Assembly (NCBI RefSeq): GCF_033170155.1
Contig: NZ_CP137079.1
Span: 2,728,001-2,792,000, forward strand
Reading direction: 5' to 3'
Origin: Raineyella sp. W15-4
GTDB lineage: Bacteria > Actinomycetota > Actinomycetes > Propionibacteriales > Propionibacteriaceae
DNA length: 64,000 nt
This document shows positions 7,425-31,519 of this stretch, one piece after another. Below the pieces are notes generated by a model. It saw only the letters and a list, made by a program, of their open reading frames with translations. It did not search any database and was not told the origin of the DNA. The translations under genes and the position numbers were made by a program. Positions within the stretch are counted from its first letter, which is position 1, and each line of letters starts with the position of its first letter.

Positions 7425-8092
7425 TCATACGGGTTGCGGCTCTCGGTTGAGGGTCGCGTAGTGGGCGGTCTCGAACTCCACAGGGCTGATCATGCCAAGG
7501 GACCCGTGTAGGCGTCTCTGGTTGTACCAGTCGACCCAGCCGGCGGTCGCGTACTCGACGTCCGCCAGGGTCTTGTAGGGCCCGTCGTGGAAGACGGTGG
7601 TGCGGATGCACTCGGCTTTGTAGAGGCCGTTGATGGTCTCCATCAGCGCGTTGTCATAGGCGTCGCCCACTGATCCGATCGAGGGATGGATGTCCTCGAT
7701 TCCCAGATGCTCAGTCAACCTGATCGAGGTGTACTGGGACCCTGCGTCGGAGTGGTGGATCAGCTCCTTGGCAACGACCGGGTGGCCGTCGTGGTCACGC
7801 TGCCAGAGCGCCATCCGCAGTGGGATCATCACCAGGTCGGTCTCCTTCGAGGTCGAGGCGTGCCAGGCCACGATCCGTTGGGAGAACACGTCCACGATGA
7901 ACGCAACGTAGACCCATGCCGGGGACCACGTCCTGACGTAGGTGAAGTCGGTCACCCAGACCCGGTTCGGCGCCGGCGCGGTGAAGTCACGGTTGAGCAG
8001 GTCACCGGCACGGATCCCGTCCTTGGCCGGGATCGTGGTCCGGACGCCCTTGTCGCGCCTGATCCCGGACAGGCCGAGGGTGCGCATGGCCC
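7425..8092 (-). pseudogene. IS3 orfB transposase, 3' fragment (catalytic core)
   Basis: About 221 residues carrying the integrase-type catalytic core: VWVTDFTYVRTW gives the first Asp, HHSDAGSQYTS the second, and GDAYDNALMETINGLYKAE the region of the final Glu. The fragment ends in the family's WYNQRRLHGSLG motif. It is separated from its own N-terminal part (9546–9866) by the IS256 insertion and has no start signal, so it should not be made as a complete transposase. Confidence 0.88.
8085..8092. repeat. 8-bp target-site duplication, left copy (right copy 9546–9553)
   Basis: CATGGCCC occurs directly outside both ends of the IS256 element. Eight bases is the usual duplication for this family, and removing the element plus one copy restores an uninterrupted orfB frame across SVDRAM–RTLGLSG. 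Confidence 0.9.
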
Positions 8093-9545
8093 GAGGGTGT
8101 CAGATGGTTTGTGTGAGGGAGGGTGCCCTCGTCTGAAGGAGACGACACTATGACTATGGCTATTAGCCCGGAACGTGCTGAGCGGCGTCGGGCTCAGAAG
8201 GAGCTCGCTGACCAGTTGAAGGCGTCCGGGGCGATGGATGAGATCTTCGCCAAGATCGATGCTGGTGAGCCGTTGACCGGTGAGGGTGGCCTGTTGGGCA
8301 GCATGCTGAAGGCCACCTTGGAGCGGGGCTTGGAGGTCGAGCTGACCGACCACCTGGGCTACGAACGTGGGGACCCGGCGGCGGCGATGTTCGACAACTC
8401 CCGCAACGGCACCAGCTCCAAGACCGTGACGACCGAGGTCGGAGACATCGAGTTGGCCGTGCCGCGGGACCGGCAGGGCTCGTTCACCCCGATGCTGGTC
8501 GCGAAGGGCCAGCGCCGCCTGGACGGCATCGATGGGATGATCATCAGCTTGTACGCCGGCGGGATGACGATCCGTGACATCCAGCACCACCTGGCCTCGA
8601 CGCTGGGTACCGAGTTGTCGCACGAGACGATCAGCAAGATCACCGATCAGATCGCCGAGGAAGTCCTGGCCTGGCAAACCCGGCCGCTGGAAGCGTTGTA
8701 CCCGGTGATCTACCTCGACGCGATCGTGGTGAAGGTCCGCGACGGCGGGCACGTGCGGAACAAGGCCGCTCACATCGCGGTCGGCGTCGACCTCGATGGC
8801 GTCAAGCACGTCCTGGGGATCTGGGTCCAAACCACCGAAGGGGCGAAGTTCTGGGCGTCGGTGTGCGCCGAGCTCGCCAACCGCGGGGTGCGTGACGTGC
8901 TGATCGTGTGCTGCGACGGGCTGACCGGGTTCCCCGACGCGATCGCGGCAACCTGGCCGTACGCGACCGTGCAAACCTGCGTGGTGCACCTCATCCGCGC
9001 GTCGATGCGGTTCGTCGCCTACGGCGACCGCAAAGCCGTTGCCGCAGCGTTGAAGCCGATCTACACCGCCGCGAACGACGACGCCGCGCTGGAAGCCCTG
9101 GCCGCGTTCGAGGACAGCAGCCTGGGCCGTAAGTACCCGGCGACCGTGAAGACGTTCACCGACGCGTGGGAACGGTTCACACCGTTCCTGGCGTTCCCGC
9201 CCGAACTGCGCCGGGTCATCTACACCACGAACGCGATCGAGTCGCTGAACTACCAGCTCCGCAAGGTCACCAAGAACCGCGGACACTTCCCCAACGACGC
9301 CGCCGTGGTCAAGCTGCTCTGGCTGGCGATCTGCAACATCGAGGACAAACGCGCCCGCGACCGCGCCAAAGAGAAAGGCCTACCCGCCGGCAGGCGCAAA
9401 GCATCCGGCAGGCTCGTCGAAGGCCAGATCGTCACCAACTGGAAAGCCGCCCTCGGCCAACTCGCCATCGCCTACCCCGACCGCATCAACCCCTACCTGT
9501 AACCACCAATCGGAAACCGCCTTACACAAACAACTTGACAAGCTC
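8093..9545 (+). mobile_element. IS256-family insertion sequence, 1453 bp
   Basis: Bounded by imperfect terminal inverted repeats (left GAGGGTGTCAGATGG, right read inward GAGCTTGTCAAGTTG; about 20 of 26 bases agree) and by an 8-bp duplication. It carries one intact transposase gene and lies opposite in orientation to the host IS3 element. The identical target copies and full-length transposase suggest a recent insertion. Confidence 0.9.
8150..9502 (+). CDS. IS256-family transposase (mutator type)
   Basis: A 450-residue DDE transposase. The catalytic residues are visible in VIYLDAIVVKVRD (about D190), VCCDGLTGFPDA (about D256) and YTTNAIESLNYQLRK (about E363). The typical C-terminal stretch NRGHFPNDAAVVKLLWLA is present. 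ATG 8150 is chosen because GAAGGAGA lies about 8 bases upstream; the frame could also open at 8123. Full length for the family and undamaged, so the element is probably still able to move. Confidence 0.95.
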   Translation: MTMAISPERAERRRAQKELADQLKASGAMDEIFAKIDAGEPLTGEGGLLGSMLKATLERGLEVELTDHLGYERGDPAAAMFDNSRNGTSSKTVTTEVGDIELAVPRDRQGSFTPMLVAKGQRRLDGIDGMIISLYAGGMTIRDIQHHLASTLGTELSHETISKITDQIAEEVLAWQTRPLEALYPVIYLDAIVVKVRDGGHVRNKAAHIAVGVDLDGVKHVLGIWVQTTEGAKFWASVCAELANRGVRDVLIVCCDGLTGFPDAIAATWPYATVQTCVVHLIRASMRFVAYGDRKAVAAALKPIYTAANDDAALEALAAFEDSSLGRKYPATVKTFTDAWERFTPFLAFPPELRRVIYTTNAIESLNYQLRKVTKNRGHFPNDAAVVKLLWLAICNIEDKRARDRAKEKGLPAGRRKASGRLVEGQIVTNWKAALGQLAIAYPDRINPYL

Positions 9546-9866
9546 CATGGCCCGGTCCACGCTGCCTGCCGACGCCCCCGCGAGCCGTTGTCGGCGGACC
9601 AGCGCGGTCATCTTCCGGCGCCCGTAGAGGCCTTCGGGGGTCAACTTGAGTCGACCCGTCCTCGTGCACCGGGCCCAGGCGAGGTCGCGCACCACGTCGA
9701 CCACTTGCGCATCACTGATGGTGCGGGCGGCGAGGTGGAGGTGCCCGTTGCGCCAGGCCCGGTAGGTCCGTGCGGCGATCTGGCAGCCCTGCTCGCGCAG
9801 GACCCGGCAGATCGACTCGACCGCATGACCCTCGGCGCGCAGGGTGTCGATGAACCCCATCATCAC
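9546..9866 (-). pseudogene. IS3 orfB transposase, 5' fragment
   Basis: Begins at GTG 9866, overlapping the orfA stop by four bases, and encodes the DNA-binding N-terminal part of orfB (DTLRAEGHAVESICRVLREQ, KMTALVRRQRLAGASAGSVD). The frame then runs into the IS256 end and stops at 9522. The remainder is at 7425–8092. Confidence 0.85.
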
Positions 9867-10174
9867 CGGTTGCGGGGGTCGAGTTCCCCCACGAAGAAAG
9901 ATGTCGCGGCCTTCAGAATGGCCACGTCCTCACGCAGCCGGCGGTTCTCGGCCTTCAGCCGCTTGATCTCCTCGGCCTCCTCGCTGGTCACCCCGGGCCG
10001 TTGGCCGGTGTCGACCTCGGCCTGGATCACCCACCGGCGCACCGTCTCCTTGCCCACCCCCAGCTGCTTGGCCACGGCCTGGCTGGCGGCCGTCAACGTC
10101 GGGTACTCACCACGGTGTTCGGTCACCAAGCGCACCGCTCTGGCCCTCAACTCCGGATCGATCTTCTTCGGCAT
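9863..10174 (-). CDS. IS3-family transposase orfA
   Basis: A 103-residue protein with a helix-turn-helix (AASQAVAKQLGVGKETVRRW) and a leucine-zipper-like coiled coil (EEAEEIKRLKAENRRLREDV), the standard IS3 orfA layout that dimerises and binds the element's ends. ATG 10174 follows AGGAGG at about 9 bases. Its stop overlaps the GTG start of orfB, allowing coupling or a frameshifted fusion, but orfB is broken here, so orfA is left without a working partner in this copy. Confidence 0.9.
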   Translation of the reverse strand: MPKKIDPELRARAVRLVTEHRGEYPTLTAASQAVAKQLGVGKETVRRWVIQAEVDTGQRPGVTSEEAEEIKRLKAENRRLREDVAILKAATSFFVGELDPRNR

Positions 10175-10226
10175 GCTGCTCATCCTCCTGCACTCAAACA
10201 GGAGCGGCATCAAACCTCGGACGCTT

Positions 10227-10850: not shown

Positions 10851-11492
10851 ATGGACGTGAGCGAGACGCTCAAGAAGGCGTGGACTGCCGTCGAGGATGC
10901 CGGTCTGCCCGAGAAGCTTCAGGAAGTTGCGTTCCGCGAAGCGGTGCGACTGCTCGTCCCCGCTCAGGTCGTAGCGGCTGCTTCTGCTGCCGCACCGCGT
11001 ACGTCTGGCCAGTCGGGGAAGTCTGGCGCGACGAGCGGGTCCACCGGGAGCGGTACGAGCGGCGGGGGCTCCAACGGCGACGGGTCCAAGATCACCGAGG
11101 CTGAGAGCACGATCCTCGACAAGGTCGAGCAGCACACGGCCGTCTCCCGCGAGAAGCTGGAGGAACTGGTCTACCTCGACGACGGGGTCCTGAAGGTGAG
11201 CCTCCCCGGCATCAAGTTGGGCAAGAACAACGCCGACAAGACGCGGGCGATCGCGCAGATCCTCACCATCGTGCGCGGCTTCGGTCTGGACGAGGACGAG
11301 ACCTCGCTGGAACTCGTGCGGGCCGAGGCCCAGCGGCTCAAGTGCTACGACTCGGCGAACTTCTCGGCGCAGGTCAAGGCGCTGAACGGCTACCTCATCA
11401 CCGGTAGCGGCGCCAACCGCCGCATCCGGGCGAAGTCCGGTGGCATTAACGGGTTCCCCGCGTTCGTAGACAGCCTCCTGAGCGAGTCGTGA
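10851..11492 (+). CDS. Uncharacterised protein A of an overlapping gene pair
   Basis: A 213-residue soluble protein I cannot assign to a family. It has a short helical N-terminal part (1–48), a Ser/Gly/Thr-rich disordered linker (about 49–79), and a C-terminal domain (80–213) with alternating charged helices and the pattern DDGVLKVSLPGIKLGKNNADK, which could be a nucleic-acid or partner-binding fold. No membrane segment or signal peptide. It overlaps the next gene by four bases (GTGA), so the two are probably made in fixed ratio. It lies between a nested IS and a tRNA gene, a typical place for defence or toxin–antitoxin cargo. Function unknown. Confidence 0.75.
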   Translation: MDVSETLKKAWTAVEDAGLPEKLQEVAFREAVRLLVPAQVVAAASAAAPRTSGQSGKSGATSGSTGSGTSGGGSNGDGSKITEAESTILDKVEQHTAVSREKLEELVYLDDGVLKVSLPGIKLGKNNADKTRAIAQILTIVRGFGLDEDETSLELVRAEAQRLKCYDSANFSAQVKALNGYLITGSGANRRIRAKSGGINGFPAFVDSLLSES

Positions 11493-12259
11493 CCGCGCTC
11501 GACGTCCGCGTCCAGCAGGGCTTCATCGCAGCGGGCATCCCCGCCGAGCTGGTGAAGGAGTTGCTGGAGGCGTTCGCCGAGGCGAAGCGGCGGTTCTACC
11601 GGGACGACTTGCGGCCCTCCGAGATCGAGGGCGCTCGGTTCTCGGAAGCCGTCTTCCGGATCCTCGAGTGGGCGACGACGCAGCAGTACACGCCGCTCGG
11701 CGGCAACCTGCCCAAGATCCCGACCCTGATGGGCAAGTTAGAGCAGGCTACGGCTTCGCCTGAGAGCGTCCGCTTCCACATTCCGCGCACGCTCCGTCTG
11801 ATCTACGACGTGCGGAACAAGCGGGACGTGGCGCACCTTGGCGACGGCATCGACCCGAACCGGCAGGACGCCACGATGGTCGTTCGGAACATGGAGTGGG
11901 TGCTCTCCGAGCTTGTGCGCCTCCACCACAACGTGTCCGCGACCGAGGCGCACGGGATCATCGCCGACCTCGTGTCGAAGGACATCCCACTGATCCAGGT
12001 CTTCGACGGCTTCCCGCGCGTGCTGAAGCAGTTGAAGGCATCGGACCACATGCTCGCCTTGCTCTACTGGCGCGGTGTCGAGGGTGCAACTTTCACCGAG
12101 TTGCATTCCTGGGCGAGGGCAGCGATGCGCGCCAACCTGAAGCGCACCCTGAACACGCTGGACGCCAAGGATCTGATTCACCTCAACGGTGACCGCCACG
12201 TTCTGACTAATCTCGGCGAACGGGACGTCGAGCAGCGCAAGCTGCTCGAACCGCAGTAG
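11489..12259 (+). CDS. Uncharacterised HEPN-like protein B of the gene pair
   Basis: A 256-residue soluble protein starting at GTG 11489 within the stop of the preceding gene. An all-helical N-terminal half contains RNKRDVAHLG with R109 and H116 spaced R-X6-H, followed by a helix NMEWVLSELVRLHHN. This is the arrangement of the HEPN ribonuclease motif found in abortive-infection and toxin proteins. The C-terminal ~60 residues (FTELHSWARAAMRANLKRTLNTLDAKDLIHLNGD) look like a winged helix. The HEPN assignment is pattern recognition, not a database match. If right, B could be an RNA-cleaving effector and A its regulator or scaffold. Confidence 0.72.
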   Translation: MTALDVRVQQGFIAAGIPAELVKELLEAFAEAKRRFYRDDLRPSEIEGARFSEAVFRILEWATTQQYTPLGGNLPKIPTLMGKLEQATASPESVRFHIPRTLRLIYDVRNKRDVAHLGDGIDPNRQDATMVVRNMEWVLSELVRLHHNVSATEAHGIIADLVSKDIPLIQVFDGFPRVLKQLKASDHMLALLYWRGVEGATFTELHSWARAAMRANLKRTLNTLDAKDLIHLNGDRHVLTNLGERDVEQRKLLEPQ

Positions 12260-12579
12260 GCCGTTCCCCGGAGCCCATGACGCTTGGTCATACCGACCCT
12301 CTCGCAGGCTCCCGCCGTTCTAGATCGCGATCTGCGGCGGTCCGACGCTAGAGAGGCCTCCGCCAAGGATCGCGAGGGCACCCTCCTCGAGCTCATCCAG
12401 TCGGCCGTCTTATGCGCAAGGAGCACAGCACCGTGACTGGTCGTTTCGAGGTAAAGGTCGCCTTCGTCTCAAGGGCGGTATGCGGTGCGACTCCGATAGC
12501 GAGGACGACACGAGGAGTAAAGCCAGAGTTTGAAGCCCACCCTGCCGGGTCGAGCCAACGCACAAGGCTCGAACTTTCG
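12260..12579. other. Gene-free stretch between gene pair and tRNA
   Basis: No supported gene. A short plus-strand frame in the left part of the stretch reads RDLRRSDAREASAKDREGTL, which looks protein-like and may be a decayed coding remnant, but no family is recognisable. No integrase gene or copy of the tRNA 3' end was seen. Confidence 0.4.
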
Positions 12580-12652
12580 TGCCCCCGATGGGATTCGAAC
12601 CCATACTGTGGCGGGTTTAAGCCGCCTGCCTCTGCCGTTGGGCTACGGGGGC
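12580..12652 (-). tRNA. tRNA with anticodon UAA (Leu UUA), short variable region
   Basis: The minus strand folds as a 73-nt tRNA. The acceptor stem GCCCCCG pairs with CGGGGGC, with discriminator A. The D stem is GCC/GGC, and the anticodon stem GGCGG/CCGCC encloses loop CTTAAAC, giving anticodon UAA. The T stem ATGGG/CCCAT encloses TTCGAAT. CCA is not encoded. The anticodon predicts leucine, but leucine tRNAs normally have a long variable arm, whereas this one has only five bases. Identity is therefore uncertain. Confidence 0.85.
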
Positions 12653-12695: not shown

Positions 12696-13688
12696 TCAGT
12701 CGCCCCGCAGCGCCCAGTCGGCCGCCCCGTCGAGGAGGTCGGTCTCGGAGACCAGCAGCCCCGGCACGTCGAGCCGGCGCGCGATCCGTTCCAGGATGAC
12801 TGCACCGGCGGTGATCACCTCAGCCCGCTTCGGGTGCAGCGAGGGGATCCGGCGCAGGTCGGCGATCGTCCGGGCGCAGAACTCATCGGCCAGCGAACGC
12901 AACGCGGGCAGTGGCATCCGGGCGCCGTGGATGCGGTCCCGTTCGTACGTCGATAGCTCCAGGTGGACGGCCATCAGCGAGGTGACGGTGCCGGCGACAC
13001 CGACCCATTCGCGGACCGCCGCGAAGTCGATCCCGCTCGCGTCGAGGGCCCGGTCGATGACGTCTCGGGTGGCGATGATCTCCGCCTGGCTCGGCGGGTC
13101 GCCGGGCAACGTACGCTCCCGCAGCCGGACCGACCCGATGTCCAGGGAAGCCACGAAGGGGGCCCGCACCTCGTCGTCCGGGTCGCCGAGGGCGAACTCG
13201 GTCGAGCCGCCGCCGACATCGGTGACCAGCACCGGGCCGGCAACCTTCACCCCGGCGACGCGCAGGCCCCTGACCGCTCCGGCGAAGGACAGCGCGGCCT
13301 CCCGGTCGCCGGAGATCACGGTGGGGTCGACGCCAAGCCGCTCGCGGACCCCGGCGACGAACAGATCGCGGTTGGTGACGTCACGGGCGGCGGAGGTCGC
13401 CACCATCCGGATGTGGCCCGGGTCGACCCCAGCCTCCCGGATCATCCCGGCGTACTCGTCGAGGGCGGCGAATGTCCGCGCCAGCGCCGCCGCGGAGAAC
13501 TCGCCGGTGGCATCGACCCCCTCGCCCAGCCGGACGATCCGCAGCTGGCGGGTGAGCTCGACCGGCGTCGGGTGGGAGTGGGCACCGGGAACAGGCGTGG
13601 TACCGGTGCCGGGAGCACCGCTATCGTCGCCCTCCACCAGCAGGAGGCGCAGCGAGTTGGTCCCGCAGTCGATCCCCGCGGCCCGCAT
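12696..13688 (-). CDS. ppx: Exopolyphosphatase / guanosine pentaphosphatase (Ppx/GppA)
   Basis: A 330-residue member of the ASKHA ATPase fold. GIDCGTNSLRLLL (residues 6–18) is the first phosphate-binding loop and VTDVGGGSTEFALG the second. HGARMPLPALRSLA and LHPKRAEVITAGAVIL are family-typical C-terminal segments. It hydrolyses inorganic polyphosphate and may act on pppGpp. The start overlaps the stop of the DUF501 gene by one base, in the conserved actinobacterial order eno–ftsB–DUF501–ppx, so it is probably the distal gene of that operon. It is a single-domain short form, as is common in actinobacteria. Confidence 0.93.
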   Translation of the reverse strand: MRAAGIDCGTNSLRLLLVEGDDSGAPGTGTTPVPGAHSHPTPVELTRQLRIVRLGEGVDATGEFSAAALARTFAALDEYAGMIREAGVDPGHIRMVATSAARDVTNRDLFVAGVRERLGVDPTVISGDREAALSFAGAVRGLRVAGVKVAGPVLVTDVGGGSTEFALGDPDDEVRAPFVASLDIGSVRLRERTLPGDPPSQAEIIATRDVIDRALDASGIDFAAVREWVGVAGTVTSLMAVHLELSTYERDRIHGARMPLPALRSLADEFCARTIADLRRIPSLHPKRAEVITAGAVILERIARRLDVPGLLVSETDLLDGAADWALRGD

Positions 13689-31239: not shown

Positions 31240-31440
31240 GGCTCCAGCGTACGACGGCGCCGGCCCCAAGGTGCCTGCCTGGGTGCGTTGCGGCAGACTC
31301 CCGCTCGTCTGGAACAGATATCAGGCTGATTGCGCGATCTCCGGCACGGTGTGGCCTCGAACCTCTCTCAAGGTGGCAATGACGATGTCGAGGTCCAAGG
31401 CGTCTCGGTCAGATCTCCGGAAGTGGTCAGGTGAAACAGC

Positions 31441-31519
31441 TCCCCGGGCAGGAGTCGAACCTGCGTCGCTTGTCCTGATTCAAAGTCAGGCGGGCCCTGC
31501 CGACAGACCAACCGGGGAA
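31441..31519 (-). tRNA. tRNA-Gln (anticodon UUG), unusual form
   Basis: The minus strand gives acceptor TCCCCGG/CCGGGGA with discriminator G, anticodon stem CCTGA/TCAGG around loop CTTTGAA (anticodon UUG) and T stem GCAGG/CCTGC around TTCGACT. The variable region is nine bases and an extra base separates the D and anticodon stems, making 79 nt, longer than a normal tRNA-Gln. CCA is not encoded. It may be functional but divergent, or partly decayed. Confidence 0.75.

Follow-up and report, generated by a model that had tools for sequence, protein, structure and literature searches.

The gene described here lies within a 64,000-nucleotide stretch of the Raineyella sp. W15-4 genome (contig NZ_CP137079.1; the window) and encodes a leucine tRNA with the anticodon UAA and a short, class I variable loop. 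Its features are collected in Table 1. ARAGORN calls the gene as tRNA-Leu(taa) at 12579-12652 of the minus strand, and the Rfam model RF00005 covers 12580-12652 (minus) end to end, with 58.6 bits where the gathering score is 29. Together with our reading of the sequence, these calls confirm the coordinates and the five-base variable loop of the original prediction, and ARAGORN places the same Leu(UAA) anticodon. The acceptor stem has 7 bp (GCCCCCG/CGGGGGC) and is followed by U8 and A9, the D loop is AACGGCAGA, the anticodon stem (GGCGG/CCGCC) and the T stem (AUGGG/CCCAU) have 5 bp each, and CCA is not encoded. The clean pairing of all stems, also predicted, is evident in the sequence but was only partly reproduced by folding: the RNAfold structure (-33.4 kcal/mol, z -2.59) contains the stems of the acceptor, anticodon and T arms, whereas its D hairpin differs from the native D stem. 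The core of the D arm is of the leucine type and carries the class I switch (C12-G23 and C13), and U48 of the variable loop is taken to pair with A15. The variable loop of 5 nt compares with 11-19 nt for the class II tRNA-Leu parsed (42 tRNAs), so that the long arm of class II is missing. An allo-tRNA or selC-like identity was considered and rejected, as the acceptor and T stems are 7/5 and the loop is short, instead of 8/4 or 9/3 with a long arm. A search of the gene's surroundings for a sigma-70-like promoter and for a terminator, a weak test, found neither.

Table 1. Features of the tRNA-Leu(UAA) locus (window coordinates)
Feature	Position	Strand	Details
Class I tRNA-Leu(UAA) gene	12580..12652	-	73 nt up to discriminator base; ARAGORN, Rfam, sequence reading
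Discriminator A73	12580..12580	-	Sequence reading
Variable loop, short	12605..12609	-	ACAGU; sequence reading
Anticodon UAA	12617..12619	-	Within loop CUUAAAC (12615-12621); ARAGORN and sequence
D arm	12628..12643	-	3-bp stem GCC/GGC; C13, A14, A15, G18G19, C20, A20a, G21, A22
Ppx/GppA phosphatase gene	12696..13688	-	Directly 5' of tRNA; Pfam PF02541

The order of ppx/gppA followed by the tRNA recurs among relatives. When a Ppx homologue on the strand of a leucine tRNA, ending no more than 1.5 kb 5' of it, is taken as synteny, the arrangement was present at 22 of the 50 loci from relatives (of which many are short, some have CAA or UAG genes and one is the window's own), at 18 of 118 genome-contig loci among the matches listed, and at 2 of 30 class I and 1 of 30 class II loci from the phylum. 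On the other side of the gene, two adjoining ORFs of 213 and 256 aa (10851-12259) lie between the tRNA and a set of insertion sequences, and Pfam searches of these two ORFs at E 1e-5 gave no match. A Mutator-family transposase (8123-9502) is flanked by an integrase-core ORF (7425-8087) and an HTH_Tnp_1 ORF (9863-10213), with a match to the ALIL pseudoknot at 9771-9905; the region 7425-10213 looks like one insertion sequence within another. Integration of a mobile element into the tRNA gene itself was rejected, since the 20-nt 3' end is present once in the window, with up to three mismatches allowed.

To place the tRNA in its genomic context, the complete set of tRNAs was surveyed in the window's genome (one contig of 3.96 Mb, 99% complete). 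The Rfam tRNA model gave 53 matches, 52 of them above the cut-off, and ARAGORN resolved these sites into 47 distinct tRNA genes that cover all 20 amino acids. The four other leucine tRNAs (CAA, CAG, GAG and UAG; 84-87 nt) are all class II. The window gene is the only tRNA-Leu(UAA) detected by Rfam and ARAGORN, which makes it the sole UUA decoder, as in bldA-type systems; a scan of the genome with a class II UAA pattern gave no match, and the second, class II tRNA-Leu(UAA) whose presence the original prediction proposed to check was thus not found. One LeuRS exceeded the cut-off (793.6 and 142.8 bits, in a single frame of 826 aa); the remaining LeuRS profile matches are weak and fall within three other long frames, which we take to be related synthetases. 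Two further tRNAs from the survey are unusual in their own right. The only tRNA-Gln(UUG) found (31439-31518 of the window, minus strand) is 80 nt long; of 14 family genomes searched, 12 contain a match that spans most of it, so that it is a conserved gene and no stray copy. A second tRNA-Gly(UCC), at L041 101-173 (G000:C1:404253-404323), scores 53.2 bits with the tRNA model and is quite unlike the other tRNA-Gly(UCC) of the genome (L005).

BLAST searches with the window tRNA matched 56 of 57 genomes, its own included. Within its family, a class I tRNA-Leu was read in 32 of 33 genomes, with the anticodon UAA in all 32, and the single exception is a draft that is 71% complete. The class I tRNA-Leu(UAA) is no single-strain oddity, and because it is conserved with paired changes in 32 of the 33 genomes, a chance origin is ruled out. 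Among the matches read in other families of the order, class I UAA genes occur in three genomes of one family (f3), and further f3 genomes with such genes came from a scan with a D-loop-constrained pattern, which matched at least 34 of 117 genomes, demands two D-loop bases and misses the window gene itself. Some f3 genomes have a UCC/GGA-type D stem and were missed by the strict class I pattern. A class II UAA gene was read in one genome of a second family of the order (f2). Class I leucine tRNAs of other families in the order have the anticodon CAA at nine loci (L143, L146-L149, L152, L154, L158 and L159) and UAG at one (L155), with varied D stems. Four loci of family f4 (L150, L151, L153 and L156) have a tRNA-Leu(UAA) with a variable loop of 7-9 bases and the D arm GGUCGAGG; with this intermediate loop, it is a clear member of neither class I nor class II.

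The wider distribution was explored in 396 genomes drawn evenly from Actinomycetota, with most loci collected by patterns that fix AGAGGC and UUAAA. The strict class I pattern matched 59 of the 396 genomes and the class II UAA pattern matched 162, a figure slightly too high as it includes some chance matches (for example G168 and G268). No genome matched both (Fisher p 1e-15, relatedness ignored), and 175 matched neither, some of which carry other D stems or loops. Rescanning 45 of these 175, together with five genomes of the same order from outside the sample, with looser patterns gave nine matches in 50 genomes (six class II, two class I with a six-base loop and one probable chance match) and none in the other 41. 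A scan of genome contigs returned at least 119 stretches, and 118 of those listed hold an ARAGORN tRNA-Leu(UAA) of no more than 79 nt. Of 80 titles among the matches listed, we assign 73 to Actinomycetota (the named records include Mycobacterium, Nocardia, Rhodococcus, Corynebacterium, Microbacterium and others), six to other groups (five metagenome-assembled genomes and Moorena) and one to an unnamed bacterium. The corresponding scan of viral contigs returned at least 120 stretches, and every one listed holds a tRNA-Leu(UAA) of at most 79 nt. By BLAST, 105 of 50,697 phage records contain something similar at E 0.01 or better; of the four that were read, Streptomyces phage CeilingFan, Synechococcus phage S-CREM1 and one further phage carry class I UAA genes and phage Wakanda carries a class I CAA gene. 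The annotated phage copies are labelled plain 'tRNA-Leu'. Two of the viral contigs (L239 and L262, of L165-L284) have short leucine tRNAs for UAA, CAA, UAG and GAG in one array. The class I tRNA-Leu subclass is therefore widespread in Actinomycetota and is found also in phages.

The absence of the arm raises the question of whether the body of the tRNA is that of a leucine tRNA, and it is the class I shape that first speaks for charging with another amino acid, and so for reassigned or ambiguous UUA codons. Plain sequence identity is a second point in that direction, as the D arm of the window tRNA scores 8 against the Trp and Lys(CUU) tRNAs of the genome and 6 against its class II Leu(CAG); over the full length, Leu(CAA) is just the nearest (19.0, against 17.5 for Arg(CCU)). 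The D-arm core gives a different answer. In the sequences gathered, 895 tRNAs were predicted, 803 of them distinct, and the leucine core (defined as a 3-bp D stem, A14, R15, GG-N-A, G21 and A22) is present in 339 of the 369 distinct leucine tRNAs (297 class I and 42 class II) and in none of the 434 distinct non-leucine tRNAs. Among the 30 leucine tRNAs that lack it are the longer-loop f4 genes and, with an altered D loop, class II UAA genes from large genomes of f6 (probably Streptomyces). Thirty class I cores have an anticodon other than UAA (CAA 18, UAG 8, GAG 2, CAG 1 and AAG 1), and all of these are leucine anticodons. A tRNA that belongs to another isotype and has acquired its anticodon by mutation was rejected on the strength of this core, the closer D-arm identity to Trp and Lys notwithstanding, and a tRNA-Met body with a changed, leucine anticodon, which would likewise be without the long arm, differs from the window tRNA in that the body of the latter is leucine-type.

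Within the shared core, the two classes differ in a coordinated manner. Position 9 is A in 280 of 297 class I genes and G in all 42 class II genes; the 12-23 pair is C12-G23 in 296 of 297 class I genes and G12-C23 in 42 of 42 class II genes, with G23 fixed by the search patterns for most class I genes; and position 13, left free by the patterns as was position 9, is C in 297 of 297 class I genes and G or A in 42 of 42 class II genes. Among the 30 non-UAA class I genes, which fall outside the pattern selection, 25 have the full switch, four have G9 and one has G9 with G12-C23. The D stems of this group vary (CUC/GAG, CGC/GCG, UCC/GGA, AUC/GAU and ACC/GGU), and thus show paired change. A73 is present in 295 of the 297 class I genes, and the 15-48 pair is A-U in 254, G-C in 31, G-G in 8 and A-C in 4. 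The departures from A-U are all viral except one G-C (30 of the 31 G-C pairs are viral), leaving 179 A-U and one G-C among bacterial class I genes, so that in bacteria the pair is simply conserved.

Further evidence for a leucine tRNA is provided by one family of the phylum (f21), in which both classes occur. Class II genes of three genomes (G282, G121 and G314) share their upstream neighbours and spacing with the class I genes of G251, G262, G271, G382 and others, in a comparison that rests on mechanically called ORFs, and some of these locus sharers belong to one genus; three other class II genes (G292, G240 and G434) share fewer neighbours with class I loci. All 16 f21 genes read (six class II, ten class I) have the acceptor stem GGGGGCG/CGCCCCU, and all except the class I gene of G426 have the T stem GUGGG/CCCAC, while the variable region and the coordinated core positions differ between the classes. 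Because the locus, the acceptor stem and, for the most part, the T arm are common to both, the two forms look like alleles, one apparently standing in for the other at a single locus. Such shared loci and arms speak against a tRNA that serves another amino acid.

The meaning of UUA was assessed by aligning homologous ORFs near class I genes and scoring the residue that faces UUA where the codon of the partner differs. UUA faces Leu at 66.3% of 201 sites, as do the other leucine codons (CUA 66.6%, UUG 66.8%, CUU 67.3% and CUG 60.7%), compared with 36.4% for AUG, 20.6% for AUC and 19.5% for UUC. The 201 sites come from 26 loci, each with a class I UAA gene and none from the window's genome, and 129 of them from four loci (L380 with 58, L287 with 35, and L340 and L402 with 18 each). 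Ten genomes in which a looser pattern found class I UAA genes only account for 160 of the sites, with Leu at 69.8%; the remaining 41, from outside the checked genomes, give 52.3%. In all 13 genomes searched with it, the looser pattern found UAA genes of class I only (completeness given for five). In the window's genome itself, PDB alignments were sought for 8 of the 31 ORFs with UUA; three had no PDB match, in four of the five proteins with a match the UUA precedes the aligned region, and in the fifth (HelD-like) it faces Met, counted by hand along the alignment. UUA reassignment was rejected on the codon alignments. With a core never seen in the 434 non-leucine tRNAs, class I cores that bear leucine anticodons only and UUA at leucine positions, the earlier suggestion of a tRNA charged with something else is not supported, and we consider such charging extremely improbable.

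A different proposal takes up the mention of bldA in the original prediction: UUA would be reserved for a small number of regulated genes, with the tRNA limiting until late growth. The codon is indeed rare: it makes up 36 of the 129,194 codons (0.28 per 1000) in ORFs chosen mechanically from 464 kb of the window's genome and occurs in 31 of the 282 ORFs, and no second UUA decoder was found in the genome. However, UUA is no rarer than base composition predicts, since the ratio of UUA to CUA is 36/243 and that of UUG to CUG is 423/5227, and the same subclass serves other genomes in which the loci fetched are rich in UUA. The predicted rarity of UUA stands, and we regard a bldA-like regulatory switch as improbable.

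Taken together, these results make it highly probable that the window tRNA is the sole UUA decoder of its genome and is charged with leucine by the ordinary LeuRS; we infer its charging, its expression and the reason that the arm could be lost. Outside the arm, the tRNA holds A73, A15-U48, G18G19, A20a and U8-A14, all of which are described as leucine identity determinants in E. coli or Aquifex in a review, which also states that E. coli tRNA-Leu variants without the long arm stay active in leucylation (PMC9976931). LeuRS would charge the tRNA through these arm-independent determinants, reading A73 and the D-loop/T-loop core and leaving the arm unread; the arm could then be lost if the core is re-tuned, because A73 and the core are read instead. 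The tRNA belongs to a class I subclass of tRNA-Leu marked by a coordinated switch within the core, as a rule to A9, C12-G23 and C13 in place of the class II G9, G12-C23 and G/A13, and would carry out ordinary UUA reading, plus UUG by wobble.

Bacterial leucine tRNAs are commonly taught as class II, and the Streptomyces bldA tRNA is class II. The window tRNA resembles bacterial class II tRNA-Leu(UAA), bldA included, in its anticodon, A73, A15-U48, D-loop core and standing as sole UUA decoder, as well as in the shared f21 locus and in one class II locus that adjoins ppx (L130); it differs in its class I form without the long arm and in A9 (sometimes G9 in the subclass), C12-G23 and C13. Metazoan mitochondrial tRNA-Leu(UUR) likewise lacks the long variable arm and is reported to be charged by LeuRS essentially via A73 and A14 (PMC9976931), although it is mitochondrial and the window tRNA is a regular bacterial cloverleaf. 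A single sentence in work on a tRNA gene cluster that mycobacteria acquired horizontally mentions a tRNA-Leu(TAG) that also combines a leucine anticodon with a short variable loop (PMC6582537); that gene lies in the cluster and comes on top of a normal copy, whereas the window gene is the sole chromosomal UAA gene. The phage 'tRNA-Leu' genes (of a Streptomyces phage, a cyanophage and others) belong to the same class I UAA subclass but are phage-borne, and some viral ones have G15-C48. Work on the MenT3 toxin lists M. tuberculosis tRNA-Leu 2, 3 and 5 as long-loop (PMC11541572), which suggests that others of this species lack long loops. Individual class I genes stand in public records as tRNA-Leu; in the part of the open-access literature searched, no description of a class I tRNA-Leu subclass with a coordinated core switch was found.

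More speculatively, the class I tRNA-Leu might be a distinct subclass in which the core switch (positions 9, 12-23, 13 and the variable loop) offsets the loss of the arm. It would be exchanged between phages and bacteria and, time and again, would take the place of the class II UUA tRNA at the latter's locus; a possible reason is that toxins or enzymes that hold on to the long arm miss a leucine tRNA without one. We put this forward tentatively, as a rather unlikely reading in its entirety. An armless tRNA-Leu(UAA) across many genera nevertheless departs from the textbook rule of class II leucine tRNAs, and constitutes a natural experiment on the requirements of LeuRS. Loci shared by both classes offer class I/class II pairs for structural studies, and the subclass calls for care in tRNA classification as well as in work on enzymes whose recognition involves the long arm.
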